NCBI GenBank assembly: GCA_009784425.1
Contig: WRBR01000009.1
Coordinates: 1-33,604, forward strand
DNA: 33,604 nt
Direction: 5' to 3'
DNA from: Coriobacteriia bacterium
GTDB lineage: Bacteria > Actinomycetota > Coriobacteriia > Coriobacteriales > UBA8131
The notes beneath the pieces are model-generated. The model was given only the letters and a program-made list of their open reading frames with translations, did no database searches and was not told where the DNA came from. Shown in pieces: positions 14,101-33,300 of the stretch. The position numbers were made by a program, and so were the translations under genes. The stretch's first letter is position 1, and the number at the start of each line of letters is the position of its first letter.

Positions 14101-15642
14101 GGCCTGAATGCCCAGGCGGTGCAAGGTGGGGGCGCGGTTTAACAGCACCGGGTGCTCGTTGATGACCTCTTCGAGGATGTCCCAGACCTGGCTCGAGACA
14201 CCGCGATCGATGTCGCGCTTGGCGGCCTTGGGGTTTTTGTTGGGATCAAGCTCAACCATACGCTTAACCACAAAAGGCTTAAAGAGCTCGAGTGCCATCT
14301 GCTTTGGCAGACCACACTGATGCAGCTTGAGCTGCGGGCCTACCACGATAACCGAGCGGCCGGAGTAGTCCACGCGCTTACCCAGGAGGTTTTGGCGGAA
14401 GCGTCCCTGCTTGCCCTTGAGCATGTCAGAGATTGACTTGAGGGGACGGTTGCCCGGTCCGGTAACCGCACGCCCGCGGCGGCCGTTATCGAAGAGTGAA
14501 TCTACGGCCTCTTGCAGCATGCGCTTTTCGTTATTGACGATGATCTCAGGCGCACCCTGGTCAAGGAGGCGCTTGAGGCGGTTATTGCGGTTGATAACGC
14601 GGCGGTACAGATCGTTGAGGTCACGGGTGGCAAAGCGGCCGCCGTCAAGCTGCACCATAGGGCGCAAGTCGGGCGGGATAACCGGTATGACGTCAAGGAC
14701 CATGTCCTGCGGTTTGTTGTGGCTCTTGAGAAAGGCATCAACAACCTTGAGGCGCTTGATGGCCTTGGCGCGGCGCTGACCTTTGCCGGTGGCGATAATC
14801 TCGCGCAGCTCCTCGCCTGTGGCTTCCAGGTTAAGATTGATGAGCAGGTCACGCACGTACTCGGCGCCCATGCCACCACGGAAGTACAGCGAATAATTGA
14901 GGCGCAGCTCACGGTAGAGGGTTTCGTCATCGATGAGCTCGCGCTCAGAGATGCGCATGAACACGTCATGCGCGTCGGTGCGCAGCTGTTTGCGCTCGGC
15001 AAACTCCTCGCGCAGGTCGGCAATCTCTTCGGCTATCTCCTCGGGGGTGAGCTGTTCGCTCTGTGCCTCGGAGGCAGCAAATTCATCGTCGCCCACCGGG
15101 GCTGCGCCCAGGCGCTTGACACCCTCAATGGCGCGCTCAAGTTCGGCATCCAGCTCTTCAAGATCTGCCGCCAGCTCGTCGGCCAGCTCGGGGGTATCAG
15201 CCTCGCGAGCCTCGGTATCAACAAAGGTGATGATAGAAGACGCAAAGTACAGCACCTTCTCCAGATCCTTCAACGCTACATCTAAAAGGTAGCCCAGCCG
15301 CGACGGCGAGCCCTTGAAATACCAGATGTGGCTCACGGGCGCGGCCAGCTCAATGTGACCCATGCGCTCGCGGCGCACCTTGGCGCGGGTGACTTCAACG
15401 CCGCAGCGCTCGCAGACAATGCCCTTAAAGCGGATGCGCTTGTACTTGCCGCAGTTGCATTCCCAGTCTTTGGTGGGGCCAAAGATCTTCTCGCAGAAGA
15501 GCCCGTCCTTTTCTGGCTTGAGCGTGCGGTAGTTGATGGTTTCTGGCTTTTTAACCTCGCCCCTGCTCCAGGAGCGAATCTTTTCGGCGGAGGCAAGTCC
15601 TATCTTGAATTGCTCAAAGTTCTGTACGTCAAATTCAGACAT
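11113..15642 (-). CDS. rpoC: DNA-directed RNA polymerase subunit beta' with alpha-CTD-like C-terminal domain and acidic tail
   Basis: [23 protein letters not shown] zinc site, [16 protein letters not shown] catalytic loop, [16 protein letters not shown]. Start placed at MSEFDVQNF (GGAGGG RBS), 1 bp after the rpoB stop. Confidence 0.97.
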
Positions 15643-15643
15643 G

Positions 15644-18600
15644 TTACTCACCCTCCCCTTCAGTGTCATCGAGTGTTATTCCGGGCACATCTTCTCCTTC
15701 GGTACCAAAACCAAGATTGGCAGCAAGGTTATCATCGGTGCCGAGGGCGCCGATGAGGCTCTCTCCCTCGGTGTCAAAGCCCAACAAGCTGCTGATGTCT
15801 CCTGAGGTGAACTCGTCAAGCCCTGAGGCAATCAGGTCGAGGGCGTCCTCGTCGCTTCCTGGCTCGCCGAGCAAGATGTCGTCATACGCGGCAGCGAGGG
15901 TCTTGGTCTCGGCCAATTCAAAGTCTTCCAGCATATCCTCGCGCTGTCCGCCTACCAGCTCAACGTCAAGACAAAGCGATTTCATCTCCTTGACCAGCAC
16001 CTTAAATGACTCAGGCACCTCGGGTGAAGGGATGTTCTCGCCCTTGACGATATGCTCATAGGCCTTAACGCGGCCGGCGGTATCGTCAGACTTGATAGTC
16101 ATGATCTCTTCAAGCACTGCGCTGGCACCGTAGGCGTAGAGCGCCCACACTTCCATCTCACCAAAGCGCTGGCCGCCAAACTGACTCTTGCCGCCCAGGG
16201 GCTGCTGCGTGATGAGCGAGTAGGGGCCGGTGGAGCGAGCATGAATCTTGTCGTCCACCAGGTGGCTGAGCTTAAGGATGTAGTTTTGGCCCACAGTGAT
16301 GGGCTCGCGGAACATCTCGCCGGTACGGCCGTCAAAGAGCGCGGTTTTGCCTTCGCGCGAGAGTTGCGGAATGAACTCATCGCGGGCCAAGTCACCCAGC
16401 TCCTTGTGGAGATGCAGTTTGTGGTTTTTATTGGCGCGCTCAATGGCGTTGGATATCTGCTCTTCTGAGGCACCGTCAAACACAGGCGAGGCCACGTGGA
16501 TGGGTCCGGGCACAGGCTCGTTGGATGAGTCGTCATCGCTCCAACCAAATTGCGCGGCCCAGCCCAGGTGAGTCTCAAGCAGCTGTCCAACATTCATACG
16601 GCTGGGTACGCCAAGCGGGTTCAAGATGATGTCAATGGGCGAGCCATCGGCCAAGAAGGGCATGTCCTCAATCGGCAGAATTGCGCTGATGACACCCTTG
16701 TTGCCGTGGCGTCCGGCCAGCTTGTCGCCTTGCTGCACCTTACGCTTTTGGGCCACATAGACCCTCACGAGCTCGTTGACTCCGGGTGACAGTTCATCGC
16801 CCATGTCGCGCGAGAAAGTCTGGATGTCTATGATGCGCCCGCCGCTTCCGTGCGGCACCTTAAGTGAGGTATCGCGCACGTCACGGGCCTTTTCGCCAAA
16901 GATGGCGCGGAGCAGGCGCTCTTCTGCCGTGAGCTCGGTTTCGCCCTTGGGGGTGACCTTACCCACCAACACATCACCGGGAAACACCTCGGCGCCAATG
17001 CGGATGATGCCGTTGGAGTCAAGGTTGCCCAGCATGTCGTCAGAGATATTGGGTATCTCTCGCGTGATTTCTTCGGGGCCCAGCTTGGTGTCGCGGGCAT
17101 CAATTTCGTACTCGGAGATATGGATAGAGGTAAGCAGGTCTTCAGTCACAAGGCGCTCAGACAAGATGATGGCGTCCTCGTAGTTAAAGCCTTCCCAGGG
17201 CATGTAGGCAACCAGCAGGTTCTGGCCCAGGCTGAGCTCACCAAAGTGAGTGGCCGGACCGTCTGCCAACACCTCGCCTGCCTCAATCTTCTGGCCAACG
17301 CGCACCAGAGGTTTATGGTTAAGGCAACCGCTTTGGTTAGAGCGCTGGAACTTAGGCAGTGCGTAGTCACGCAGCCCATTTTTTCCGCGCACGGTAACCC
17401 GGTTGGTCTGCACGTATTCAACAACTCCGGGCTCCTCGGCAAGTACAATCTCGCCGGAGTCCACGGCGCAGCGGTGCTCCATGCCGGTGCCCACGAGCGG
17501 TGCATCGGGGCGCAGCAGCGGAACCGCCTGGCGTTGCATGTTGGAGCCCATGAGGGCTCGGTTGGCGTCATCATGCTCCAAGAAGGGGATGAGGGCCGTA
17601 GCAACCGACACCATCTGGCGCGGCGACACGTCCATGTACTGCACGCGCTTGGGCACAACCTCTTCAGGCTCACCAAACGATCCTCGTGCATCACGCATAC
17701 GGCAGAGCACCTTCTCGGCTTTGACAAACTTGCCCTTTTCGTTGCGGGTACCAAACTCACGGCTCTCTTGATCAAAGGTCTCGTTTGCCTGAGCGATGAT
17801 GAAGTTTTCTTCCTCATCAGCGGTGAGGTAGTCAATGTCATCGGTGACCTTGCCATCAATAACGCGGCGGTACGGCGCCTCGATAAAGCCGTAGGAATTA
17901 ACGCGGGCATAGGTGGCGAGCGAACCTATGAGCCCAATGTTGGGGCCTTCCGGGGTCTCAATGGGGCACATGCGTCCGTAGTGCGAGGGGTGCACGTCGC
18001 GCACCTCAAAGCCGGCGCGCTCACGGCTCAGGCCGCCGGGGCCCAGCGCCGAGAGGCGGCGCTTGTGGGTGATGCCCGTGGCCGGATTGGTCTGATCCAT
18101 GAACTGGCTCAGCTGCGAGGAGCCAAAGAACTCCTTGATAGCCGCCACAATGGGTCGGATATTGATGAGGCTGGTAGGCGTAATCTCAGAAACCTCCATA
18201 GTGGACATACGCTCGCGCACCACGCGCTCCATGCGGCTGAGGCCAATGCGAAATTGGTTTTGAATCAGCTCGCCTACGGTTTTGATGCGCCTATTGCCAA
18301 AGTGGTCGATGTCGTCAAGCTGGCAGTTGGGGTTGCTGTTGGCCAGCTCGGTGATGTAGCGCATGGTTTGCACCACATCCTCTTTAGTGAGGATGGAGGG
18401 GCCGGCTTCCGAGTAGTTTTGCGTACCGCGCTCATGGTGCTTGCCCATGTCTTCGGCCACAACGCAGGTGTAACCATCCTCGGCGGGGGTATAGGTGAGG
18501 CCAAGCTTTTTATCTATCTTATAGCGGCCTACGCGCGCCAGATCATAACGCTGCGGATTGAAGAACAGGCCCTCGAGCAGCGTGGCTGCGCTGTCTACAT

Positions 18601-19351: not shown

Positions 19352-19496
19352 GGTGGGTTCCTCCTTAGGAAGTAGAGAGAGGCCGTAAAAAGTCGTACCC
19401 TCAAATGTTACTATGAAACGACAGAAAAACAAGACTTGTTTTTTTGATTTGAGCAATTCTAGGTAACAAATCGGCAACAGTGAGGAAGGTGGCGCT

Positions 19497-20555
19497 GTGA
19501 GCGAACTGGAACGCATCAAGTTATCGCAGCTTTCTAACAAGGGTGGTTGAGCGGCCAAGTGGGGTCCGGAGGATCTCTCGGCAGTCTTATCTTCCTTTAC
19601 AAAGCAGTCTGACCCACGCCTGCTGGTTGGGTTTGAGAAAAACGATGACGCCGCGGTGTACGCGGTGAATGACGAGCTTGCCGTGGTGATGACCACAGAC
19701 TTCTTTACGCCCGTTGTTGATGACCCCTATGACTTTGGCCGTATAGCTGCTGCCAATGCCCTCGGCGATATCTTTGCTATGGGGGCGCGGCCTTTGATGG
19801 CGCTCAACCTGCTCGCTATTAGCCCCTGCCTGGGATTGGACATTGCCAAGGACATCCTTAGGGGTGGCGCTGATGCCGTGGCCGAAGCCGGAGCCCTCGT
19901 TGCCGGAGGTCACACTCTAGATGATGAGGTTCCCAAATATGGACTCTCTGTTTTGGGCACCGCGCACCCTCATGAGATAATCTGCAACCAGGGTGCCTTG
20001 CCGGGTGACCTACTCTATCTCACCAAGCCCCTTGGCACCGGGATAATGCTTTCTGCTGTGAAGTCTGGGCGCGAGACCCTTGAGAGCATCAGCGCGGTTA
20101 TCGATTCAATGAAGGAGCTGAATGACCTCGCCTCCCAAGCGATGATTGCCGCGGAGGCCCATGCGGCAACTGACGTCACCGGCTATGGCCTTGCCGGACA
20201 TCTGCATGAAATGCTGGCGGCAAGCGGCTGCTCGGCACTATTGGAGTGGACTCAGATCCCTCTCTTTAATAGTGTTGTTGAGTATTCAGAAGGGCGCGGC
20301 AGTTCAAACCTAAGCTCCCCTCTTGCAAGCCATGCCTTACAGTTTGTTGAACAGGGTAGGCTCGATGATATCGACTTCTCCACATGCATGGGGGTGCTGT
20401 GTGACCCCCAAACCAGCGGCGGCCTACTCATAGCCCTGGCTCCCGGCATGCAAGACTTCTTTGAAAAGGTCTACCTCTCACTCACCGGCAAGCAAGCAGC
20501 CTGCATCGGAACCGTCACCCCCGAAAGCCCCGGCACAATCCGCTTCTCCAAGTAA
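19497..20555 (+). CDS. selD: Selenide, water dikinase; predicted selenoprotein with in-frame TGA (Sec) at 19548-19550
   Basis: GTG start with [119 protein letters not shown]. Frame continuous with the 19656 ORF; GG(U/C)xxK is the SelD active-site motif. Confidence 0.93.
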
Positions 20556-20702: not shown

Positions 20703-21173
20703 TCAGGTCGGCAACAAGGGTGAGATTTCTTCTTTTGGATCCTTGCCGGATTTGAGGGTGCTGTAGATGAGGTGCACTGCCTCGAAGACTTTTTCGTGGA
20801 GAGGGCCAAAGAATTCTGTGTGCGATGGCTGAATGCCTACAAAAACAACCTCCTTGCAGCAGGCTTTGAGCTCGCTTAGGAGATAGGTGAGGGGGAGCGA
20901 GTGGGTGGTGATGAGAAAATCGGTGTACACGTCTTCTTCTTGCAGGATACGTATCTCGCCGGGCTCTAGTCCCATGTCTGCGGCATCCACCAGGAGAAGC
21001 AAATCAGGAGCTTTTCTGCGAATCACCGAAAGTTCGTCTTCAGGCGACTGCCCCCCGTCGATGACCTCCCATCCCTCAACGGGATTATCGGTCAGCATTT
21101 TAGCGAGCAACGGCCCGGCCGCATCATCACCTCTGAGCACGCTGCCTACGGTGAGTACCAAAGAGCCGCTCAT
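20703..21173 (-). CDS. hycI: Hydrogenase maturation endopeptidase (HycI family)
   Basis: VLTVGSVLRGDDAAGPLLAKML, LLLVDAADMGLEPGEIRI, THSLPLTYLLSEL, VVFVGIQPSHTEFFGPLHEKV. Confidence 0.88.
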   Translation of the reverse strand: MSGSLVLTVGSVLRGDDAAGPLLAKMLTDNPVEGWEVIDGGQSPEDELSVIRRKAPDLLLLVDAADMGLEPGEIRILQEEDVYTDFLITTHSLPLTYLLSELKACCKEVVFVGIQPSHTEFFGPLHEKVFEAVHLIYSTLKSGKDPKEEISPLLPT

Positions 21174-21613
21174 GCTTCAACCAGCCTCCCCATCAGGTAC
21201 ACCACCGGTGAGCTCTGAATGGTATGCAGGGACTCGGTCAGAGCCAGGGAAAAATCCTGTGCTTCTCTGCTGGTCTCAAGAGCTAAAAGCGGCTCTCTTA
21301 TTTCATCGAGCAGAAAGGCCGCGTGATTCTTATCAACCTGGATCTCTCCGTGTCGGAGGATGCCTTCGAGCTTGTAGCGGGCCTTGCTGTCCTCAGGCAA
21401 CAACTCAATCACCTCGAGATACACGCTGAGGGGGCATCTAAATTTTTCGCTGAAGCAGTCGATAACTCCCGTATGATGACCGATTGCCAGGGAGTAGTAC
21501 ATCACCTCTGCGGTTTCATCAGGAATCTCGCGCTCGTTGTCAACGAACTTGGTGCTCAGCTGATAAAAGACCACAAAGCTTTCTTTACTGTTATAGGGCT
21601 CTCGTTCAGTCAT
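21170..21613 (-). CDS. hycH: Formate hydrogenlyase maturation protein HycH
   Basis: FYQLSTKFVDNEREIPDETAEVMYYSLAIGHHTGVIDCFSEKFRCPLSVYLEVI ... EGILRHGEIQVDKNHAAFL resembles E. coli HycH (YYSLAIGHHLGVIDC, GEIxIDxNH); 4-nt overlap with hycI. Confidence 0.88.
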   Translation of the reverse strand: MTEREPYNSKESFVVFYQLSTKFVDNEREIPDETAEVMYYSLAIGHHTGVIDCFSEKFRCPLSVYLEVIELLPEDSKARYKLEGILRHGEIQVDKNHAAFLLDEIREPLLALETSREAQDFSLALTESLHTIQSSPVVYLMGRLVEA

Positions 21614-22033
21614 ACATCATACCCATTAGCTTTTGGTTACCGGCTCACCAGAAGGTAAGCCAACAGTTATATTACCACTTGCCAACAGCGCCTGGCGCGC
21701 ACTGAGCAAATATGGCCAGCGAGCTGCTCTAAAACGGTTTTTTGATAACTATCAAGTTACCTACAGACAGCCTTTGTGTATTTGAACTCCCAAAAAAATG
21801 GTGCTACTATCGGCTGAAGATGCGTCTTGCATTGTGTACTGGGAAATCTTTGGCAGAGAAAAAAGGAACGAATTAAATATTTTTTCAGATTCTTGTATGA
21901 CAAACACAGAATTGCTGGGTCTTAGTTATTGAGCGCATTTTTTGCACTCAGCAGGAAAGTCTCTGTGAGACAAGGGAAGACTGGTCTTTTCCCCCTTTAG
22001 TGGTTTGTCATCAATACAAGGCGGACACATCTG

Positions 22034-22282
22034 ATGAGTAATCTCTTGACTCATGGAAAAGCTTATTTGGGGGGCGGTGAGCAGGAGGTGAAGTGCAGGA
22101 CAAAGGCGCCGTTTAAAACGCGCGCAAACAAACCTGCTCTCACGCAGATTCTTGAGCAAGCAGAGCAAGAACGGGTAACTGAGGAGCAGTTAAGAAGAAT
22201 ACTGGGGCCAGTGTTCAAAAGGATCAACGAGGGCCGGTTCGACGGGACGGACCGCCCGGGACAGAAAAAGTGGGTAGAATAG
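22034..22282 (+). CDS. Small hypothetical protein upstream of the sigma factor gene
   Basis: 82-aa ORF, charged helix-rich; no recognised family. Confidence 0.4.
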   Translation: MSNLLTHGKAYLGGGEQEVKCRTKAPFKTRANKPALTQILEQAEQERVTEEQLRRILGPVFKRINEGRFDGTDRPGQKKWVE

Positions 22283-22301: not shown

Positions 22302-23543
22302 ATGAACAATCTGGTAGGCAGTGAAGCGTGGGTGAGCGCTCCCTTAGAAGCGCACAAAGAAAAAGGGATACCTGAAAAGCTTATTCGCAAAGCGAGCCGT
22401 GGCAATAGGGCTGCTTTGAGAGAACTCTGCGAGGCCATAGCCCGGCATGTCACCTTTCGCGTTATGCGCAAAATCAAAAGCCCGGCCGATGTTGAAGATG
22501 TGGCACAAGAAGTTCTCTTCAGAGTGTGCGAGGGCATCAGAAACCTGAGAGACCCCCGAGCCTTTGGAGGCTGGCTCAACACCATCATTAATAACGAAAC
22601 CAATCGTTATTTCACCCAAAATAAAAAACACGGCGTTGTCATCAGCATGGACCAGTACCTCGACAGCATTGTTCTTGAAGATGACAACGACTTTTTAGCT
22701 CATGACTACGTTATTAAAGAAGAAGAGAGAAAAGCTGTCATAGCCGTCATCGACACTCTGCCCGAAAGGCAGCTTGAGGCGGTCATTCTCTATTACTACG
22801 AAGGCATGAGCGTTACCGAAACCGCCCGGGCTATGGGGGTCACCAAGCAGGTGATATCCATACACTTGGCACGGGCAAAAGAAAAGATACGTAACGTACT
22901 TCACAAAGAATCAGAGGGCTTGGAAAAAACCGGCACCAGCAGCTTTGCCGTTTTGGGAATAGGCGGCATGATTTCTCAATCTCTCTTTGAAGAGGCTGCC
23001 CTCATGCCAATGCTCAGCAAGGCTGCAATAGACTCAGCGGTTGTTGCCGGCCTGGTCAAAGCCGAGATTGCTATGGCGGCAGCAGGAACCGTGGCAACCA
23101 AGAGTCTGGCCAAGTGGCTCGTAAGTGTAGTGGCCGGCATGGCAGTGGTGGTAGCGCTTGTCTCATTTTTTGACACTGACGCTGTGGTGGCAGACAACAA
23201 AACTGCCTCCGTTGCTGTTGCCGCAAGCACTATTGATACGCAAGGGGACATCGTCTTTTCTGAAGGAGAGACTGAACTCAATACCGTGAATCCCAATTAC
23301 GCATCGGCATGGGCCACCAATGACAGAGGAGAGCTTATCGCTCTTTCTTGGTGGATAACGCCGGGAGACGAGGAAGAAGCGGTTCTTTACATCGGAGAAG
23401 GGGCAAGTGTAGGCGATGCGCTTTTGACCATGAAAGAAAGCGGGAGGCTTGGCGCCTTTACGCTCTGGTTTTTGATGGAAGACAGCGCAGGTGCTACCTA
23501 CACCATGCAAAGACAGTTCACGATTCAAGTTGAGGGCATATAA
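22302..23543 (+). CDS. Sigma-70-family (ECF-like) RNA polymerase sigma factor fused to a transmembrane segment and extracytoplasmic domain
   Basis: Region 2: PADVEDVAQEVLFRVCEGIRNLRDPRAFGGWLNTIINNETNRYF; region 4: IDTLPERQLEAVILYYYEGMSVTETARAMGVTKQVISIHLARAKEKIRNVL; then TM helix LAKWLVSVVAGMAVVVALVSFF and ~120-aa C-terminal domain. Confidence 0.9.
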   Translation: MNNLVGSEAWVSAPLEAHKEKGIPEKLIRKASRGNRAALRELCEAIARHVTFRVMRKIKSPADVEDVAQEVLFRVCEGIRNLRDPRAFGGWLNTIINNETNRYFTQNKKHGVVISMDQYLDSIVLEDDNDFLAHDYVIKEEERKAVIAVIDTLPERQLEAVILYYYEGMSVTETARAMGVTKQVISIHLARAKEKIRNVLHKESEGLEKTGTSSFAVLGIGGMISQSLFEEAALMPMLSKAAIDSAVVAGLVKAEIAMAAAGTVATKSLAKWLVSVVAGMAVVVALVSFFDTDAVVADNKTASVAVAASTIDTQGDIVFSEGETELNTVNPNYASAWATNDRGELIALSWWITPGDEEEAVLYIGEGASVGDALLTMKESGRLGAFTLWFLMEDSAGATYTMQRQFTIQVEGI

Positions 23544-23563
23544 GTTAAGGAGATATGTGGGAC

Positions 23564-26500
23564 ATGAGACACTCTAGAGCACAATTCAAAGACGGAGATT
23601 CAAAGCTCAAGAAAACCGTAAGCATTCTGCTGGTGTTGCTTCTGGCGGCAACACTCATCATCGTACCGGCAGGAGGCCTGGAGCTTGGTGGCAATCAGCA
23701 AACCGTCGAAACAGGAGATGAGGATGCATCCTCTGCTCTTGATGCCAGGGAATCTGAAGAGGCAGATGGGCTAGATGAGAACGGCGCTGCACTCTTGGCC
23801 GCAGAAGAATCTCCTGTTTCTCCTGAAGGCGCCGTAGAGGGAGACTCCAACATGCTCCTTGCCATGAATGACCTCACGGCCCTGGCTGACTCCGGCAGCA
23901 TCAGCGGCTTTTTATGGGTTGATGGCAACGGCATGGCCCCCACCGACTGGAACGGTCTCTTTGACGCGGGCGAGTGGGCTCTTGGCAACTTTGCCGTGTA
24001 TCTGTATGACGCAGATGCCCTTGCCGGGCCTGTCACCAACCACACCACGCCCATAGCCCAAACCACTACCAGTGTAAACGGCACCTACGTATTTGAGGGC
24101 CTTGCTGCGGGTAACTATATAGTAGGGCTCGTCAGCGGCTTTGTGGACGGCGTGGAGTTTTTGCTGCCCTTTAACTTCACCAATCAAAACAAATTTGAAA
24201 TCAACTGGGATGCCATTGACTGGGATACCTGGGATGATGACCGTGATCAGCTCATGGCTTTAACCGAGGTCATCACTCTTGGAGAAAACGAGTCAGCAGT
24301 AAACATTGATGCCGCCATGCGTTTGCCTATGGGTATTCAGGCAACGGGAATACTCGAAGATCTCTGGAACAGTGCCGTAGGTACCAACCATCGCATAGAC
24401 GACACTGATTGGCGCGTGGTAAGAAAGCAGACAATCTCAGGTGGCAACTACGTAATGCTACTCAGGCTGAATTCTATTAGTACGGGCAATCACTTTAACA
24501 CAGAAAATAGCAGCGAGTACGACGGCTCGCTTCTTCAAGGCCGTATAACCAGTCACTATGCCGGCACGAGTTACCCCACCATAAAAGCAATTGCCGTGCA
24601 GCCCAATCTGGGAAGTCATACCGATGTTAATTTTCTTACCCAACCTACAAATACCCCGGCCGGTACTCAAACCAGGGACATCATGTTTGCCCTGAGCTAT
24701 CGAGATATCAAAACTCTGATTCCTGGTGGTGAAGGCATTCGTGCTCCGCTTCCTACTGTTTATAGGCAAGGCGTTAACGCTTTTGAACGATATTATCTGC
24801 GCACGTCTGTTAATGCGTCAACACTCTGGGGAGTCAGCTTTATTTCTGATTCCCTGGACGGTGGAATCTCACCTTTTTCCACCCGGATTAGTGACATTGC
24901 AGCCATATGGGTAGGCACTTCTTTAACGAGGCAGGTTACCGTTCATTATGTGGATGCAAGCGGAACAACTCTACGCCCGCCAGACACCCGCACGGTTACC
25001 TTTGGCAACGACTTTACCGTTCAAAACTCAGACATCCCCACCATTGCCAATTACAACTTTAGCGATCGCTGGAGAACCACTCCCACCGGCGCGCTGCTGA
25101 ATCCCCCCATAAGGCTCACCAATGTAACCACCAATTCAAATATCTATCTGGTGTATAACGAGATTCCAAAGGAGCGTTACTGGGTATATAAGGACACCAA
25201 TCTGAACAACCTTCTCAGCACCTGGCACTGGCTGGCCGATGCGGTCAATGCCTGCGGAACTGATGGTGGCTACACCATCTACGCAACAGAAAACGATACT
25301 GACATGTCCGACACCCCCGGCACTGATCCCAAGGGTCCCATCAACCCTCTCTATAAAAATCTAGCCGTGACTATTCCCTCTAATAAGACCATCACACTCA
25401 CCTCTCATTCGAGCGCTGTAACGCCCTTTGTCATCACGCAACGAAGCGTTAACGCCAGACACCTCTCAGTCTTCGGCTCCCTCACGATGAGAAACATCGT
25501 CTTGGACGGCATCACTACGGGCGGCGGCTTGCAGGTAGGTGATCGCCAGTTTGGCTTGACTGGTTCGTTTGTCATGGACAATGGTGCCGTTGTGCGCAAT
25601 TGCAACAGCACCGGCAATGGCGGGGGCGTGTTCATCAGCCAAGGCAGCATGATCATGAACAGCGGCAGAATCATCGATAACAGATCAGGCGGCGTTATGG
25701 GAGGCGGCGGTGTCTGCATCAACGCTGGCACCTTCACCATGAACAACGGCGAAATCAGTGGCAACAGGGCTAACAGCCAAGGTGGCGGTATATACGTTGC
25801 CACACAAGACGGATCCACCACTGACTTCTTCAGGATGAACGGCGGCTCCATCATCAACAACACGGCAAGCAACACCGGTGGTGGCGTACAGGTTGCTCCC
25901 TATGCCACCTTTGAGATGACCGCCGGTTTGATTGATAACAATACTGCCACCCTCACAGGCGGCGGAGTGGCTCTGTCATACGCCCGCTTTACCATGAGTG
26001 GCGGAACTATCAGCAATAACACCACCAGCAGCTTTGGCGGTGGTGGTATATGGGTTGACTCTAACAGCACTTTGATAGTGACTGCCGGGCAGATCCGTAG
26101 CAACAAGGCGCCCAGCGGTGGCGGTGGCGGTATCTTCACCTCAAATTATGGAAATATCAGGATTGCTCCAGGAGTGATTTTCTCTGGCAACACCGCATCA
26201 AGCGCCGTTGATATTGGCATGAACGCCACGGAATACGTGGCGGTGTTCCAAACGGACTTGAGCCCCAACGGCATCTACAGTCCCTGGGCACCGGGCGGCT
26301 ACAGCAACTGCATAAGCTTTGTTGCCGCCCACCCGGTTAACAACTACGACATCAACGTGATTACTTTTCCTGTCACCGTGAGATATGTGGATGTGAATGG
26401 TGCTTCCATACCCGGCAGGCCGGAGACAACGACCCAGGTCCACTATGGAAGGACCTTCTCGCAAAATCCCATAACGCCGATACCCGGCTATAAAACAGAG

Positions 26501-27139
26501 GGCTACTTTGTTGGCACTACCTTCAACCCGCCAACTCATGTGTATACCCCGGCCACCAGCTATACCAGTCCAATCATCAAGGGCAACCACACCGTATACT
26601 TTGTGTACCGAGAGATAACCTATACCACCCTCACCGTATCCAAAGAAGTTGCTGGTAATTACGGCGAGAGACTAAAGCTCTGGACCTTTACCGCGTACTT
26701 TGAGGATGAGGATGGCACACCGTTTACCGCCCCCTATCCGTTTACCATCACACACAGAGACGGCACCACGAGTGTTGGCACTAAAACTCCCAATGCAACC
26801 GATGGCAGCATCAGCTTTGATCTTAAGCATGGTGATGTAATCAGCTTGGGTGAGGTGCGCCGTGATGCAACTATCCGCATCGTGGAAACACCAGACAGTG
26901 AATACGCTGCCAGCTTTATAGACAGCCTCAGCCCCGCAACCAAGGTCAACGGCAATGACACGGGCAAGGTTCCCATGTCAGAAAACAGACGTTTTGACTT
27001 TACTAATGCCTATGACGACACCCCAGAGTCAGGCATTACTGCCGGCGGTGCTTCGGCCTTGGCCCTCTCGGCTTTGATCCTCGTAGCTACCGGAGCAATC
27101 GTAGTTTACGTGGTCAGACGCCGTAGACAAGTGTTCTAA
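23564..27139 (+). CDS. Large surface adhesin: signal peptide, SdrD-B-like domain, MucBP-like domains, glycine-rich beta-helix repeats, pilin-type beta domain, C-terminal anchor
   Basis: SGSISGFLWVDGNGM...TSVNGTYVFEGLAAGNYIVGL; TVHYVDASG / TVRYVDVNG modules; repeated NNG-IS-N-A--GGG-[IV] motifs; LTVSKEVAGNYGE...; TPESGIT + TM + RRRR. Start at MRHSRAQ favoured by AAGGAG spacing (alternative ATG at 23555). Confidence 0.87.
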   Translation: MRHSRAQFKDGDSKLKKTVSILLVLLLAATLIIVPAGGLELGGNQQTVETGDEDASSALDARESEEADGLDENGAALLAAEESPVSPEGAVEGDSNMLLAMNDLTALADSGSISGFLWVDGNGMAPTDWNGLFDAGEWALGNFAVYLYDADALAGPVTNHTTPIAQTTTSVNGTYVFEGLAAGNYIVGLVSGFVDGVEFLLPFNFTNQNKFEINWDAIDWDTWDDDRDQLMALTEVITLGENESAVNIDAAMRLPMGIQATGILEDLWNSAVGTNHRIDDTDWRVVRKQTISGGNYVMLLRLNSISTGNHFNTENSSEYDGSLLQGRITSHYAGTSYPTIKAIAVQPNLGSHTDVNFLTQPTNTPAGTQTRDIMFALSYRDIKTLIPGGEGIRAPLPTVYRQGVNAFERYYLRTSVNASTLWGVSFISDSLDGGISPFSTRISDIAAIWVGTSLTRQVTVHYVDASGTTLRPPDTRTVTFGNDFTVQNSDIPTIANYNFSDRWRTTPTGALLNPPIRLTNVTTNSNIYLVYNEIPKERYWVYKDTNLNNLLSTWHWLADAVNACGTDGGYTIYATENDTDMSDTPGTDPKGPINPLYKNLAVTIPSNKTITLTSHSSAVTPFVITQRSVNARHLSVFGSLTMRNIVLDGITTGGGLQVGDRQFGLTGSFVMDNGAVVRNCNSTGNGGGVFISQGSMIMNSGRIIDNRSGGVMGGGGVCINAGTFTMNNGEISGNRANSQGGGIYVATQDGSTTDFFRMNGGSIINNTASNTGGGVQVAPYATFEMTAGLIDNNTATLTGGGVALSYARFTMSGGTISNNTTSSFGGGGIWVDSNSTLIVTAGQIRSNKAPSGGGGGIFTSNYGNIRIAPGVIFSGNTASSAVDIGMNATEYVAVFQTDLSPNGIYSPWAPGGYSNCISFVAAHPVNNYDINVITFPVTVRYVDVNGASIPGRPETTTQVHYGRTFSQNPITPIPGYKTEGYFVGTTFNPPTHVYTPATSYTSPIIKGNHTVYFVYREITYTTLTVSKEVAGNYGERLKLWTFTAYFEDEDGTPFTAPYPFTITHRDGTTSVGTKTPNATDGSISFDLKHGDVISLGEVRRDATIRIVETPDSEYAASFIDSLSPATKVNGNDTGKVPMSENRRFDFTNAYDDTPESGITAGGASALALSALILVATGAIVVYVVRRRRQVF

Positions 27140-27195: not shown

Positions 27196-27816
27196 ATGAA
27201 GACGATCAGGAAAAAGGAAGAGGCAAGCCGAACTCCCAACCGGCAAAGGGGTGATCCCGAAGGGGACGACTCCACGCCACCCCTATCTCCAGGGGAGGCG
27301 CGTCCCAAGGCCAAGGTCAAGCGCAAAACGGTTTGGCACGACCTGGGAATGCTCGGAGTCAAGATTGGGGCAATCGTCTTGATTGCGGTAATGCTTTTTA
27401 GCCTTGTGTATGGATTGCATTACAACCGGGAGCCAGACATGCTCCCTGCGGTAAAAGATGGAGATCTGGTGATCTACTACCGCTGGGACAGGGACTACGT
27501 GGCAAGAGACCTGATAGTGCTGGAACACCAGGGACAAACGCAAGTAAGACGAGTGGTTGCAGTAGCAGGAGATACGGTAGATATCTCGGAGCAAGGACTG
27601 ATGATAAACGGTTCACTCCAGCAAGAACGAGAGATATTCTTCCTCACTCAACGCTACGAAGACGGTCCCAAGTTTCCCCTCACCCTGGGAGAAGGAGAGG
27701 TGTTTGTCTTAGGAGACTATCGCGAAGGTGCAACTGACAGCCGCATCTACGGACCAGTCAACGTAGAAGACACCAAAGGACAGGTAATAACCGTCCTCAG
27801 AAGAAGGAACCTTTAG
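27196..27816 (+). CDS. Signal peptidase I-like protein lacking the canonical Ser/Lys dyad (SipA-like)
   Basis: EPDMLPAVKDGDLVIYYRWDRDYVARDLIVLEHQGQTQVRRVVAVAGDTVDI ... FVLGDYREGATDSRIYGPV; canonical SM.P Ser is Asp, KRV Lys is Arg. Confidence 0.9.
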   Translation: MKTIRKKEEASRTPNRQRGDPEGDDSTPPLSPGEARPKAKVKRKTVWHDLGMLGVKIGAIVLIAVMLFSLVYGLHYNREPDMLPAVKDGDLVIYYRWDRDYVARDLIVLEHQGQTQVRRVVAVAGDTVDISEQGLMINGSLQQEREIFFLTQRYEDGPKFPLTLGEGEVFVLGDYREGATDSRIYGPVNVEDTKGQVITVLRRRNL

Positions 27817-27900: not shown

Positions 27901-27968
27901 GAGTGAGAAACACTGGGAAAGTAATACAAAAACTGGGAACTGGGAATTAGATCTAGGAAGGAATGATC

Positions 27969-29303
27969 ATGAGAGAGAAAGAAATGAAGAAGTACAGAAA
28001 ATCAAAGGGGCTGCTGGCTATTTTGCTTGCAGTAATGCTGAGCCTGACTATGGTGCCGGCTGCATTTGCAAACCCGGTTGACCCCGAGGGTATCGACCGA
28101 GCCGCCATCACCAAGGTGCTCAAGGTGCCGGTAGGAACCGATGTGCCGAGTATCACCTTTACCTTCACTATTGAAGGCATCTCAATCAACGATGACACTA
28201 CCCGAGCCTCAAGCGTGCCGGTTGCCGGCAATGCCGGCCAGGCATCAATAGTGTTTCCCGGCACAACCGCCAACCCGTATCAGCACACTGAGAATGTGCT
28301 GCCTGACTCCACGTATTACTACCTTGAGTCTGCGGAGCTCTTTGGCAATATAGTCTGGCCGGATACAGGCAGATATACGTATTTGATTACCGAGAACAGC
28401 ACGCAATACGCCCTTGACGACGGCGAGTTTCTCATTGAGTCTCAAGCCGTGTACCGCGTAGTGGTGTACGTGAAGGAAGACCCCATCACCAAGCTGCCCT
28501 ATATCTGGGGAATTGGCGCCTTTAGAATCACCGACGATGGCGGCACAGACCTTGGTCCTGGCGGCGTCAAAGTTGACCCAACACCGGGCGGCCCTGCCAC
28601 AGGTGAATGGAGCTACAGCCAGATGACCTTTGGCAATGTCTACTACAAGCATAATGGCGACGACGGGGAAGATCCCGAGAAGGACACCCTGATCATCTCC
28701 AAGGAAGTTTCTGGAGAATACGGCTCCAGTCAAACATACTTTGACTTTACCTTAACCATCAACAAGCCCTCACTGGTTCCCGATACAGTAACCAGCTACA
28801 GAGCCTATATCCTTGATGGCACAACCGTTGTGAGCAATCTTACCAACAACAAGGTAGGGGCATCCTTTATTACCACGGACTCAAACAACGTAACCTGCAT
28901 CGACATCCCTCTTGGCACACCGTTTACGTTTGCGCTCAAGCATGGACAGTCCCTGGTCTTAACCAATGCGTTTGTAGGATCTAACTATTCTATAAGCGAG
29001 GCTGCCACTCCAAGCTACAAGCCCTTCGTAGTTGTTCTCTCCAACAACACGCTGATTGGTGAGGTCACCGCTGGCATTGGCTCCGGTCTTGCCGTTCCGG
29101 CAGACGGCACCGCCATTACCTCTAATCCGCTCGTTGGCGAGCTGAAGAACTCTGCAGCTTTTGAAAACGTGAATGATGGAATTGAAGAGACCGGTCTCAC
29201 TATGGAGAACCTACCCTTCATTGGCATGATAGCACTGGCGGCCTTGGGCCTTGGCGCTTTCATCCTCATTCAAGCCCGCAAGAGAAGAGCAGAAGAACTC
29301 TAA
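27969..29303 (+). CDS. FctA/Spy0128-like pilin subunit 1
   Basis: Signal peptide KGLLAILLAVMLSLTMVPAAFA; AAITKVLKVPVGTDVPSITFTFTIEG ... YTYLITEN ... LIISKEVSGEYGSSQTYFDFTLTI ... FALKHGQSLVL; EETGLTMENLPF + TM + KRR. Start chosen for AGGAAGG spacing. Confidence 0.88.
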   Translation: MREKEMKKYRKSKGLLAILLAVMLSLTMVPAAFANPVDPEGIDRAAITKVLKVPVGTDVPSITFTFTIEGISINDDTTRASSVPVAGNAGQASIVFPGTTANPYQHTENVLPDSTYYYLESAELFGNIVWPDTGRYTYLITENSTQYALDDGEFLIESQAVYRVVVYVKEDPITKLPYIWGIGAFRITDDGGTDLGPGGVKVDPTPGGPATGEWSYSQMTFGNVYYKHNGDDGEDPEKDTLIISKEVSGEYGSSQTYFDFTLTINKPSLVPDTVTSYRAYILDGTTVVSNLTNNKVGASFITTDSNNVTCIDIPLGTPFTFALKHGQSLVLTNAFVGSNYSISEAATPSYKPFVVVLSNNTLIGEVTAGIGSGLAVPADGTAITSNPLVGELKNSAAFENVNDGIEETGLTMENLPFIGMIALAALGLGAFILIQARKRRAEEL

Positions 29304-29314
29304 AGACAGTCAGA

Positions 29315-29358
29315 GCCGGGGAGGCTTGCCGCGCAGAGCGAAGGCTTGCCGCCCCGGC
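29315..29358 (+). promoter_or_regulatory. Intercistronic GC-rich hairpin GCCGGGG...CCCCGGC between the two pilin genes
   Basis: 7-bp perfect GC stem enclosing two direct copies of AGGCTTGCCGC. Confidence 0.55.
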
Positions 29359-29390
29359 ACACCACTTGCTACGAAAGGAAAGAGCTTAAC

Positions 29391-30734
29391 ATGAAAAAGA
29401 TAGCAAGAATAATGTTGGCAGCCATACTGGCAATGACTTTGAGCCTTGGGATGGTGCCTGCGGCACATGCAGACCCGGTTGATCCAACCACCATCAACAC
29501 TGCGGCTATCACCAAGGTGCTCAAGGTGCCCGTTGGCACAGATTATCCGGCCATGACCTTTGAGTTTGAGGTTGAGCGCGTAGGTTTCAACGACACCACA
29601 AACATTCCGGCCAATTTTCCGCAGATTGGCACTGTCTTCATCGCTTTTGATGGAGCCACTGCAACCAGCCGTACCGAAGCACTCGAGGGCACTGTAGCCG
29701 GGGTAAGCACCTACTACCTCGAGTCACATGAGCTCCTTGCCGCAATCAACTGGCCAACCGCCGGCAAGTATGAGTACAAAGTCACCGAGGTTGATACTAA
29801 CTACACCATTTTAGATCCCCTCCACGAGGCAATGGAGCTTTCACTGGCCGAGTATTCTCTGTCGGTCTATGTACGTGAGTACAACGCAGACGATGCAGCG
29901 GCGGGCAGAATACCGGCTGGCAAGTCAATAGGAGACCGCTACATCTATGCCGTAGGTATGATCAGAGTTGTCAGTGATGACGGTGTACCCGGCTACTTCA
30001 AGGGTGATCCCACCCCGGGTGGCAACCAGGTAACCACCTTCTACAGTGACATGATCTTCACCAACAAGTATGTCAAGACCAATGGTGCCGACGATCCCGA
30101 TGATCCCGACCCCACTGATCCCGGCGATTCAACGCTCAACATCACCAAGACAGTAGCCGGAGACATGGGAAGCATAGTGCTGCCCTTTGACTTTACTATT
30201 ACGGTAAATGTTCCTACGCTGATTCCGAGCTATCAGCTGGATACTTACAAAGCTTATCTGGTGGCCGGCAATAACGTTCTTGATCCATCGGTTGCCATAG
30301 ATGCTTCTCTCGTAGCCACGCTTGTTGGCACGGATTCTTCCGGAATGAAGTACCTCAAGATTGCGCCCTTTACTGCGGTGGCCTTTAAGCTGACTCATGG
30401 GCAAAGTCTTGTGTTCATCAATACTCCGGTGGGCACCAACTATTCAATTAGCGAGGCGGGGGTAGACCGCTACACTGCCTCTGTGCGAGTCACCACCAAC
30501 AATGTACAGGGTGGTCCAACCAACGGAACTGCTGCCGGCACAGGGGTTTCCATCACCGGTGCCCTGGTGGGAGAGGCTCTGAACAAAGCTGATTTTACCA
30601 ACACTTTTGACCTGACACCTCCCTCTGGCCTCACCCTGGAGAACCTGCCGTTTTATCTCATGGTTCTGCTTGCGCTGGGTGCCCTGGTTGTGTTTGTTGT
30701 AGCAAAAAGACGAAAGAGGCAAGAAGAGGAGTAA
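29391..30734 (+). CDS. FctA/Spy0128-like pilin subunit 2
   Basis: Paralogue of pilin 1: AAITKVLKVPVGTDYPAMTFEFEVE, LNITKTVAGDMGSIVLPFDFTITV, FKLTHGQSLVFINTPVGTNYSISEAG, TPPSGLTLENLPF + TM + KRRKR. Start MKKIARI (29391) preceded by GAAAGGAAAG. Confidence 0.88.
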   Translation: MKKIARIMLAAILAMTLSLGMVPAAHADPVDPTTINTAAITKVLKVPVGTDYPAMTFEFEVERVGFNDTTNIPANFPQIGTVFIAFDGATATSRTEALEGTVAGVSTYYLESHELLAAINWPTAGKYEYKVTEVDTNYTILDPLHEAMELSLAEYSLSVYVREYNADDAAAGRIPAGKSIGDRYIYAVGMIRVVSDDGVPGYFKGDPTPGGNQVTTFYSDMIFTNKYVKTNGADDPDDPDPTDPGDSTLNITKTVAGDMGSIVLPFDFTITVNVPTLIPSYQLDTYKAYLVAGNNVLDPSVAIDASLVATLVGTDSSGMKYLKIAPFTAVAFKLTHGQSLVFINTPVGTNYSISEAGVDRYTASVRVTTNNVQGGPTNGTAAGTGVSITGALVGEALNKADFTNTFDLTPPSGLTLENLPFYLMVLLALGALVVFVVAKRRKRQEEE

Positions 30735-30920: not shown

Positions 30921-32012
30921 TTGAGCAAGGCCACTGATATAACAAGAAAGGCGATACGGCTAGTTGACGGAGCTGTAAATACTGCAGTGCTCGTCATTAT
31001 CCTAGCCCTTGTTAGCATCGGCAGCTACGCTTTGTGGGACTCCGATCAGGTACATCGGGCGGCTCAAGCAAGCAACTACGCCATCTACAAACCCATCCCT
31101 GAGGTCAAATCCTTTGAAGAGCTTATCCTGATCAACGACGATGTGTTTGCCTGGATAGAGGTCTATGGCACCCATATTGATTACCCTGTGGTGCAGGGCC
31201 TTGATAACTCTACCTATATCAACACCAGTGCGGCAGGAAAGTACTCCCTGAGTGGGGCGATTTTTCTGGACTACCGATCAGCCCGTGACTTTTCTGACTT
31301 TAACTCCATACTCTACGGGCACCACATGGAAAAATTTGCCATGTTTGGCGAGATTGGTGACTTTGCCAAAAAGAGCTTTTTTGATGCAAGGCAATACGGC
31401 ATGCTCTTTTATAACGGCACTGAACATGGACTTGAGTTCTTTGCGTTTATCCATGTAGATGCCTATGACAAGACGGTTTTTTTGCCCGGTATTATTGAGG
31501 CGGGTGCTTCGCAGGAGTACCTCAACAGAATCTTTGAATGTGCCGTGCACACGCGCGAGCTCAGTGTGCCGGTGAGCACTGAGGACAGAATCGTTTTGCT
31601 CAACACCTGCTCAGCGGCCTCTACCAACGGAAGAGACATCCTTGTAGGCAGGATAAGCGACGAACTGTTTGATAATCCCTTTGCTGTTGACGAGGTGATT
31701 GAGGATGAGTTAGTGCCCGGCGGGTTTATGGAAATGTGGGGCGCTCTCGCCCTTTGGGCAAAAGTGCTGATATTTGCACTGCCCCTGATAGCTCTGATTT
31801 TACTGGTGTCATTTCTGATGAACAGAAAGCGCAAAAAAGATAAGGCTGCACTCTTATCATCTTCCGGTTCAGCCAACATACCCAGCCCAGAGACAGACCC
31901 CCCTGATGCTGGGTTGTTGGTTGAACCAGAAGATGACAAAGCAAGCCCCAAGCAGGAGCCTCTAAAGCTCCAGGAACAACAGCCATCTAGAAACGGCGAG
32001 GGAGAACAATAG
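30921..32012 (+). CDS. Class B sortase (predicted pilus polymerase) with C-terminal TM and charged tail
   Basis: TTG start with GAGAGGAG RBS; FAWIEVYGTHIDYPVVQGLDNSTYINT, GAIFLDYRSARDFSDFNSILYGHHM, catalytic LNTCS and NGRDILVGRI. Confidence 0.92.
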   Translation: MSKATDITRKAIRLVDGAVNTAVLVIILALVSIGSYALWDSDQVHRAAQASNYAIYKPIPEVKSFEELILINDDVFAWIEVYGTHIDYPVVQGLDNSTYINTSAAGKYSLSGAIFLDYRSARDFSDFNSILYGHHMEKFAMFGEIGDFAKKSFFDARQYGMLFYNGTEHGLEFFAFIHVDAYDKTVFLPGIIEAGASQEYLNRIFECAVHTRELSVPVSTEDRIVLLNTCSAASTNGRDILVGRISDELFDNPFAVDEVIEDELVPGGFMEMWGALALWAKVLIFALPLIALILLVSFLMNRKRKKDKAALLSSSGSANIPSPETDPPDAGLLVEPEDDKASPKQEPLKLQEQQPSRNGEGEQ

Positions 32013-32013
32013 T

Positions 32014-33300
32014 ATGTATACAGTTGACAGCAAAACGGTGCTACCCAGCTCTCTGAGCATGAAGCAACTAAGCAGTTCAAGCGGCAAGTGCGGCGGGCGT
32101 GCCACACTTTCAGGAGGCCGCCTGATTGAAAGGCAGCAAGGCGCGTGGCAGCCGGCAAAGTTTTTGATGCTGGCGCTTGTTTTGACCTTGGTGTTTTCTT
32201 GCCTGGTTTGTTTTTCAGCATTGCCAGGGCGCAACATGGCTTACGCCGCCACTCCTGGTGAGGTTGTTATTGAGGTAAATCAAACCTTCACCGCTGGAGG
32301 CACGGCTACGCCACCCGGCGCAGCCTTTACCTATAGCCTCATTCCAACAGTGGCTACCAACCCCATGCCAGCCGGCGGCGGCACCTTTACTCTCACCGGC
32401 ACGAGCTCGGTAAACATTACCTTGAACTTTACAAGGACCGGCGAATACTTTTACACCTTGCAATGCACCACAACCGCTGCAAGCGGCTATACCATAGACA
32501 CTATTGTGTATGCCGTTGAGATTACCGTCTTGAACAATCTCACTTCTTTTCTTGTTGTAAAGAACCCAGCTGGAGAAAAGAAGGAGCGCGCTGAGTTCAG
32601 CCACTCCTTCTTTGCCAATACTCCTCCGCCTCCTCCGCCTCCGCCGCCGCCACCACCACCGCCACCACCGCCACCACCGCCGCCTGGACCCACCGTGTAT
32701 GTTCCCGTGCCGGTTCCCGTGCCAACAACCACTGAGCCCACAACTACTATCACCCCTAACCAAACACCTACTGGTGTACAGACGCCGGTTGAGGAGAGGG
32801 AGATTATACCTCCGCCTCCTCCGCTGAGCGGGGCTTGGGCCCTCCTGAATCTGATACTGGCCATTGTTGGCATCTTGCTTGGAGTGATAACCCTCATTCG
32901 CGCTCTGAGAAAGAAGAACAAGGGCGACGAGGAAGACGAAGAGCTTGACGACCATGCAACCGTCCAGGCTGCCTATGCAACAGCTCAGCAGGGCGCCTAC
33001 CCCAATGCTGGGTATGACGAAGATATTGAAGAAGAGAGCGAAGAAGAGCAGAAGCTGAAGAGAACCAGACGCATCTGGCTTGCAGTGACACTCGTCTTGG
33101 CTGTGGTTGGCATAGTGTTCTTCTTCATCACCGAGGATATGCGTCTGCCTATGGTATTTGTTGATCGCTGGACCATAGTGAATGCATTAATTCTGCTCTT
33201 AGAGATAATAGCCATGATATTTGTGATCAAGAAATATAAAGAAGAAGTTGAAGAAGACGAGGAAGAAGAGATTCTCGTAAGCTTGGAGAGTGAAGCCTAG
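32014..33300 (+). CDS. Membrane-anchored Spy0128/FctA-like domain protein with polyproline stalk, three C-terminal TM segments and acidic cytoplasmic tail (candidate pilus base)
   Basis: Signal/TM FLMLALVLTLVFSCLVCFSAL; EVVIEVNQTFTAGGTATPPGAAFTYSLIP...GEYFYTLQ; ~21 consecutive Pro codons; TM segments ALLNLILAIVGILLGVITLI, IWLAVTLVLAVVGIVFFFIT, NALILLLEIIAMIFVI. Confidence 0.78.
   Translation: MYTVDSKTVLPSSLSMKQLSSSSGKCGGRATLSGGRLIERQQGAWQPAKFLMLALVLTLVFSCLVCFSALPGRNMAYAATPGEVVIEVNQTFTAGGTATPPGAAFTYSLIPTVATNPMPAGGGTFTLTGTSSVNITLNFTRTGEYFYTLQCTTTAASGYTIDTIVYAVEITVLNNLTSFLVVKNPAGEKKERAEFSHSFFANTPPPPPPPPPPPPPPPPPPPPPGPTVYVPVPVPVPTTTEPTTTITPNQTPTGVQTPVEEREIIPPPPPLSGAWALLNLILAIVGILLGVITLIRALRKKNKGDEEDEELDDHATVQAAYATAQQGAYPNAGYDEDIEEESEEEQKLKRTRRIWLAVTLVLAVVGIVFFFITEDMRLPMVFVDRWTIVNALILLLEIIAMIFVIKKYKEEVEEDEEEEILVSLESEA
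32623..32685 (+). repeat. CCN trinucleotide tract encoding 21 consecutive prolines
   Basis: Direct codon reading CCT CCG CCT CCT CCG CCT ... CCG CCG CCT GGA. Confidence 0.95.

Follow-up and report, generated by a model that had tools for sequence, protein, structure and literature searches.

Single-chain membrane proteins that combine a sigma factor with its anti-sigma part are already on record, and include ECF48, ECF52 and ECF53 of the Actinobacteria and IutY of Pseudomonas (PMC8999054, PMC5826349). Truncated IutY is constitutively active and the intact protein is released by Prc and RseP, a route that has been proposed for ECF52 as well (PMC8999054, PMC5826349). The protein described here is encoded in a stretch of 33,604 nucleotides from a Coriobacteriia bacterium (contig WRBR01000009.1, hereafter the window), and resembles ECF52 (SCO4117 of Streptomyces coelicolor) in carrying a sigma domain, a transmembrane (TM) helix and an outside domain (here a predicted one) in one chain, ECF52 being also a protein for which proteolysis of the C-terminal extension has been proposed (PMC8999054, PMC5826349). 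With ECF48 and ECF53 it shares an ECF sigma domain and a TM helix in one polypeptide. ECF48, ECF52 and ECF53, however, own a cytoplasmic zinc-finger anti-sigma module, whereas the corresponding motif, HxxxCxxC, was found in none of 34 fused proteins of the window family. ECF52, in addition, has a Pro-rich region and a carbohydrate-binding module, while the window protein, in which Pfam detected no such module, has an ectodomain modelled as Ig/PKD-like and a gene linked to surface and pilus genes. The likeness to IutY (ECF243 of Pseudomonas putida) lies in the fusion of the sigma factor to a membrane-bound regulatory part, IutY being released by regulated proteolysis (PMC8999054, PMC5411451). 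IutY, however, works with an outer-membrane receptor in Gram-negative cell-surface signalling, whereas the window locus has neither a FecR-type domain nor a TonB receptor: the Pfam scan of the window protein returned no FecR-like anti-sigma family, and no TonB-dependent receptor gene is present among the neighbours of the sigma gene (adhesin, pilins and sortase).

Other signalling systems offer partial parallels. In the SigI-RsgI system of Clostridium thermocellum, many sigma paralogues with outside sensors control surface machinery, through proteolysis by RseP and then by ClpXP (PMC12203970). The window family is similar in its many sigma paralogues per genome and its putative outside sensors, with the difference that RsgI is a separate anti-sigma factor whose periplasmic domain is autocleaving, and SigI is a free protein, whereas the window sigma is itself tethered. 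In the FecI-FecR-FecA system, the sensor and sigma genes adjoin the gene of the surface protein that they presumably control; that system, however, is made of three proteins including an outer-membrane receptor, while here a single protein is found with sortase-anchored or secreted surface proteins. One-component regulators of the ToxR/CadC kind also have a cytoplasmic transcription part, one TM helix and an outside sensor, although their DNA-binding part is a winged helix and that of the window protein is a sigma factor. The single-chain sigma-TM layout is, in fact, already known from ECF48, ECF52, ECF53 and IutY, and what is new here is the lack of a zinc-finger or FecR-type module, the Ig-like ectodomain, and the linkage to surface loci. 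A formal ECF group may already exist for this family, which we set apart from ECF48/52/53 and IutY by its lack of their anti-sigma features, its ectodomain and its gene context.

The single-chain protein and its locus

The fused sigma gene is a single uninterrupted open reading frame (Table 1). Pfam placed Sigma70_r2 at residues 46-109 (38.9 bits, cut-off 24) and Sigma70_r4_2 at residues 144-196 (45.3 bits, cut-off 25.7), and TIGR02937 of NCBIfam scored 78.9 bits. Sigma region 3 was absent from the Pfam scan, with a gap of about 35 residues between regions 2 and 4; having regions 2 and 4 and lacking region 3, the protein is an ECF (group 4) sigma-70 factor. The first-pass annotation had described sigma regions 2 and 4, an Ala-rich linker, one TM helix and a tail of about 120 aa, and Pfam, hydropathy and the actual tail length of 122 aa agree with that description. 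The K-containing flank on the N-side of the TM helix has a net charge of +1 and the D-rich flank on the C-side a net charge of -2; of 35 fused members, 25 are more positive on the N-side than on the C-side, the window protein clearly so. By hydropathy, residues 246-264 form a second hydrophobic stretch, borderline and Ala-rich. An N-in/C-out topology is favoured by sequence rules and domain type, and this prediction, through flank charges and the kind of domain involved, sides with the earlier placement of the C-terminal domain outside the cell.

The linker spans about 75 residues, in which the full-length AlphaFold model places both helices listed in Table 1 at moderate confidence, and in the alignment the linker of fused members generally carries a short conserved helix. 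No Cys is found past sigma4 in the window protein, and hhalign detected no similarity between the linker and the anti-sigma N-termini of the same genomes. The modelled sigma2-sigma4 arrangement, for which inter-domain confidence is low, gave target TM-scores of 0.71-0.72 against SigW-RsiW and CnrH-CnrY, versus 0.30-0.42 against RNAP-bound sigmas; the model hints at autoinhibition, with the linker as a possible internal anti-sigma segment. In these genomes, the genes of many ordinary ECFs run into a downstream gene with a TM segment, presumed to encode their anti-sigma factor. No such overlapping gene accompanies the fused sigma, which fits the first-pass claim that a separate anti-sigma factor is dispensed with, although the linker may itself act as an internal one and a conserved small ORF lies just upstream.

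AlphaFold models the C-terminal 122-aa domain as a beta sandwich (pLDDT 83) whose neighbours among solved structures are PKD and Ig domains at modest TM-scores (0.4-0.6), and we consider it an Ig/PKD-like sandwich, confidently modelled. The domain has no Pfam match, and sequence searches of Pfam and the PDB gave weak Ig-like hints at most. The f13 relatives end in an 80-residue stretch that matches InlK_D3 (40.3 bits in L085 and 25.2 bits in L080, cut-off 25), a domain known from surface proteins, with a Pro/Thr/Ser-rich spacer before it. When the ectodomain profile was run against 400 genomes of the class, its matches were the sigma proteins of the fused family alone, with none outside sigma proteins at E 0.001, and for this reason the f1 ectodomain looks private to the fused-sigma family. 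Between strands 1 and 2, Asn330-Pro331 hardly varies across the f1 alignment. Asn-Pro is the dipeptide at which RsgI proteins cleave themselves; the dipeptide is common to both but the fold is different, which makes it a lead only, and Pfam and PDB searches of the window ectodomain returned no match to the RsgI autocleaving periplasmic domain. Speculatively, self-cleavage at Asn330-Pro331 might stand in for a site-1 protease in the window's clade. At locus L033 (2170-3444, G023:C92), the ectodomain of a fused sigma diverges abruptly past the TM helix, no surface gene lies beside it, and the gene is probably decaying. The window's own genome also encodes a 212-aa linker-TM-ectodomain protein of the same family without a sigma domain (L160, 5511-6149, G000:C100), either a relic or a split-off sensor.

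Table 1. Positions in the window of the fused sigma gene, its parts, and the neighbouring features.
Feature	Position	Strand	Basis or remarks
Candidate promoter/regulatory element TTGTATGACAAACACAGAATTGCTGGGTCTTA	21893..21924	+	blastn of orthologous upstream regions; ~380 bp upstream of sigma
82-aa ORF, possible small accessory protein	22034..22282	+	Ends 19 bp before sigma; missed by the first-pass annotation
Single-chain ECF sigma factor-linker-TM-ectodomain protein	22302..23543	+	413 aa
Sigma regions 2 and 4, residues 46-196	22437..22889	+	Pfam and NCBIfam, above cut-off
Cytoplasmic Ala-rich linker, ~residues 197-270	22890..23112	+	Candidate internal anti-sigma segment; helices 214-234 and 240-264 in model; no HxxxCxxC
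Transmembrane helix, residues 272-290	23115..23171	+	Hydropathy 2.47; positive-inside flanks
Extracytoplasmic Ig/PKD-like domain (predicted), residues 291-413	23172..23540	+	AlphaFold, alignment; conserved Asn330-Pro331
Large adhesin/pilus tip-like protein	23555..27139	+	Signal segment, SdrD_B (below cut-off), MucBP, DUF7601, C-terminal TM, basic tail
Signal peptidase I-like protein of pilus locus	27196..27816	+	Pfam, NCBIfam
Pilin, FctA + DUF7601	27963..29303	+	Pfam
Pilin, FctA + DUF7601	29346..30734	+	Pfam
Class B sortase	30921..32012	+	TIGR03064, 162.5 bits
FILTED-domain surface protein	32014..33300	+	NF052597, 114.1 bits

The distance of 20 bp reported at first between the sigma and adhesin genes holds if the ATG at 23564 is used; with the ATG at 23555, the adhesin gene starts 11 bp from the sigma stop. 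The sigma gene does sit before the adhesin and pilus genes, as the head of the locus would, but with the 82-aa ORF upstream of it, it may not be the first. The pilus locus of the congener G019 is syntenic, in the order sigma, adhesin, signal peptidase, pilin, pilin and sortase, with 48-51% identity for the fused sigma ortholog and 44-67% for the other proteins.

Elsewhere in the window, the frame of SelD (selenide, water dikinase; 19467-20555, + strand) continues upstream beyond its listed GTG start, across an in-frame TGA (context GG-U-AAKW), and SelD is probably itself a selenoprotein, of which the 299-aa ORF is a version truncated by standard-code calling. The hydrogenase maturation genes HycI and HycH (20703-21613, - strand) adjoin it. 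RpoC (11113-15669, - strand) ends in a C-terminal alpha-CTD-like domain (PF03118, residues 1379-1430, 34.5 bits, cut-off 23.8), and a similar helix-hairpin-helix is found at the end of RpoC in an f13 genome (L087, 3-2921).

Fused sigma factors as a lineage beside surface genes

Relatives of the window protein at E 1e-15 or better are present in 15 of the 33 genomes of its family, and a class-wide search with a narrow profile, in which four candidates per genome were scored, found them in at least 11 of 400 genomes at E 1e-25. About 36 proteins from families f1, f3 and f13 have the sigma-linker-TM-ectodomain layout, the parts in common being sigma2-sigma4, linker, TM helix and C-terminal outside domain. 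The recurrence of this layout in one frame across some 36 proteins bears out the original proposal that sensor, anchor and sigma factor are combined in one chain. The window's genome has 2 fused proteins among 5 ECFs, and contains a full-length paralogue on contig C98 (38% identity over residues 23-410); in the f13 genome G053, as many as 13 of the 15 ECF-type region-4 matches are fused.

We compared 37 fused proteins with ordinary ECFs of the same genomes. On the sigma-domain tree, a quick tree with several weak forks, the fused and plain labels required 5 changes versus a mean of about 26 after shuffling, and none of 500 shuffles gave a number as low: the fused ECFs form a lineage apart from ordinary ECFs. 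A few plain members are nested among the fused ones, as expected from later loss. L109 (G053:C4) and L111 (G041:C7), in fact, are plain ECFs inside a fused clade that lie directly upstream of surface proteins of more than 1200 aa, and a secondary loss of TM helix and ectodomain is likely for both. In G019, the intact fused sigma is immediately preceded by a truncated tandem copy that consists of the sigma part alone (L026 10531-11250, - strand, 239 aa). A scan of viral contigs yielded no relatives of the fused sigma, a single-sequence search of genome contigs yielded three distant plain sigma matches only, and a phylum search with a broad profile returned mostly ordinary ECFs, the sigma part dominating. 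At L163 (G417:C19, 3548-5113) and L161 (G426:C15, 4240-6192), in other genomes of the phylum, long TM-bearing ECF frames each have the gene of a large secreted protein downstream, and the pattern of fused sigma and surface gene may extend beyond the class.

To score linkage by one fixed rule, a neighbour was counted if it was a secreted ORF, 400 aa or longer (150 aa or longer if cut by a contig end), with its start no more than 700 bp downstream. Such a neighbour follows 27 of 36 fused and 14 of 46 ordinary ECFs (p = 1.2e-4), and a secreted neighbour of about 940 aa or larger follows 20 of 36 and 2 of 46, respectively (p = 1.5e-7), both p-values being only indicative because the ~940-aa cut was picked after viewing the data and paralogues are not independent. 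Many of the ordinary ECFs counted at 400 aa are probably followed by TM-bearing anti-sigma factors that start inside or beside the sigma gene, and the two ordinary positives at the larger cut are the aforementioned L109 and L111; among the fused positives, the neighbours of L036 and L042 are not clear surface proteins. Domains of the scanned neighbours include Flg_new/InlB (Listeria-Bacteroides) repeats, LRR_5, SdrD_B and DUF7601. The surface gene lies upstream of the sigma gene instead at C98, G024:C20 and G006:C39, and L033, L094, L095 and L096 are fused ECFs without an adjacent surface gene. The linkage of fused sigmas to surface or pilus loci is statistical and not a one-off, gene adjacency alone being no proof of regulation by the fused sigma; probably, every one of them serves a single adhesin or pilus locus as its private switch. 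Our literature search found no paper that treats sigma factors together with pili or sortase in Coriobacteriia.

The region upstream of the sigma gene

The regions upstream of the fused sigma genes of the window and of G019 share one strong blastn island (30/39, E 4e-4) at a similar distance from the sigma gene, reading TTGTATGACAAAYAC...TGGGTCTWA. This motif matches once in the window, where 0 matches are expected, and once each in the window's genome (G000) and in G019, while the reversed-pattern control gave 0. It could be the promoter read by the fused sigma, a suggestion that rests on two loci; the truncated tandem copy in G019 seems to be preceded by a divergent form of this element. A sigma-70 promoter scan of the upstream region gave matches below chance expectation.

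Between the candidate promoter island and the sigma gene lies the 82-aa ORF, which belongs to no Pfam family. Its relatives overlap the fused sigma in G024 and end a few bp before it in G030; a profile of the small ORFs of the window and G030, run on 16,999 small frames, picked up the G024 copy, likewise placed upstream of its sigma (E 6.6e-8), and a search of the whole family returned those three and a fourth, on G023:C23, with no adjoining sigma. An accessory or anti-sigma role for its predicted product is possible.

Proposed release from the membrane and competing explanations

The explanation that we favour, and consider moderately probable, is that of a single-chain transmembrane signalling sigma factor that is released by proteolysis and drives its own pilus operon. 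At rest, the TM helix would hold the N-terminal ECF sigma domain at the membrane, with the Ala-rich linker helices probably folded on sigma2/sigma4 as an internal anti-sigma segment. The Ig-like outside domain would read the state of the surface, the likeliest signal, on the basis of gene linkage and of the analogy with FecA-FecR, being contact with, or absence of, the adjacent adhesin or pilus proteins. Such a signal would expose the chain to a site-1 cut, a site-2 protease would then cut within the membrane, and the freed sigma domain would join RNA polymerase and transcribe its own operon, comprising sigma, adhesin, signal peptidase, two pilins, sortase B and FILTED protein. We infer autoregulation, ligand, proteolytic release and autoinhibition alike from anatomy and precedent. 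The window's genome has a complete site-2 protease gene (G000:C37, with HEVGH, a PDZ-like core and NLLPVPPLDGG) and one HtrA-type protease (C120); Prc (S41), the site-1 protease of IutY, was not found in this 86% complete assembly.

Alternatively, the protein might be activated in situ without any cleavage, a change in conformation or oligomeric state of the ectodomain allowing the tethered sigma to recruit RNA polymerase to membrane-proximal promoters. The combination of a single TM helix, a cytoplasmic DNA-binding part and an outside sensor is indeed the ToxR/CadC layout, and in our alignments the C-terminus lacks a conserved tail such as Prc or DegS would recognise. A sigma factor, however, must travel into the holoenzyme and stay engaged through promoter opening, the known single-chain ECFs are thought to be proteolytically released (PMC8999054), and the site-2 protease gene is present, and we regard activation at the membrane as unlikely. 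Decidedly unlikely, in our view, is that the 82-aa upstream product is the main holder of the sigma factor, as a soluble anti-sigma factor or co-regulator, with TM helix and ectodomain just positioning the complex at the membrane: related ORFs do adjoin or overlap a fused sigma in three genera, but none is found upstream of the G019 ortholog, the C98 paralogue or the other fused loci, and the copy on G023:C23 has no sigma beside it. A hairpin, in which residues 246-264 and 272-290 would both enter the membrane and leave the C-terminal domain in the cytoplasm as a regulatory domain of another kind, is very improbable. The second weak hydrophobic stretch does occur in 5 of 7 close members (window, L026, L027, L028 and L030), but most of the wider members have one TM helix only, the flank charges in 25 of 35 members point the other way, the f13 members have an InlK_D3 domain, a type found in surface proteins, as well as Pro/Thr/Ser-rich spacers, and the predicted fold of the ectodomain matches extracellular PKD and Ig domains. 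Lastly, the artefactual joining, by frameshift or assembly, of a sigma gene to the 3' end of a membrane-protein gene, for which a fragmented assembly (146 contigs, 86% complete) would leave room, is excluded for practical purposes, because full-length homologues across genera and families keep sigma, linker, TM helix and ectodomain in one frame.

Beyond release by proteolysis as such, a wider proposal is one that we hold tentatively, at somewhat less than an even chance: that the Ig-like domain senses the adjacent surface protein, that one-protein switches of this kind serve surface and pilus loci across an actinobacterial class, that in one genome at least 13 such switches work in parallel to choose its coat, and that the whole is the single-chain counterpart of FecIR-FecA. 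For annotation, family models call the fused proteins plain sigma factors when half of each is a membrane anchor and an outside domain, a description that is corrected here. If our proposal is true, the sensor-sigma next to a given surface locus would make a compact, self-contained and transferable signalling part, and cell-surface signalling would extend to sortase-anchored surfaces, with many natural sensor-sigma pairs that possibly differ in promoter preference. Such an arrangement would bear on how these little-studied bacteria pick the adhesins and pili that they display.
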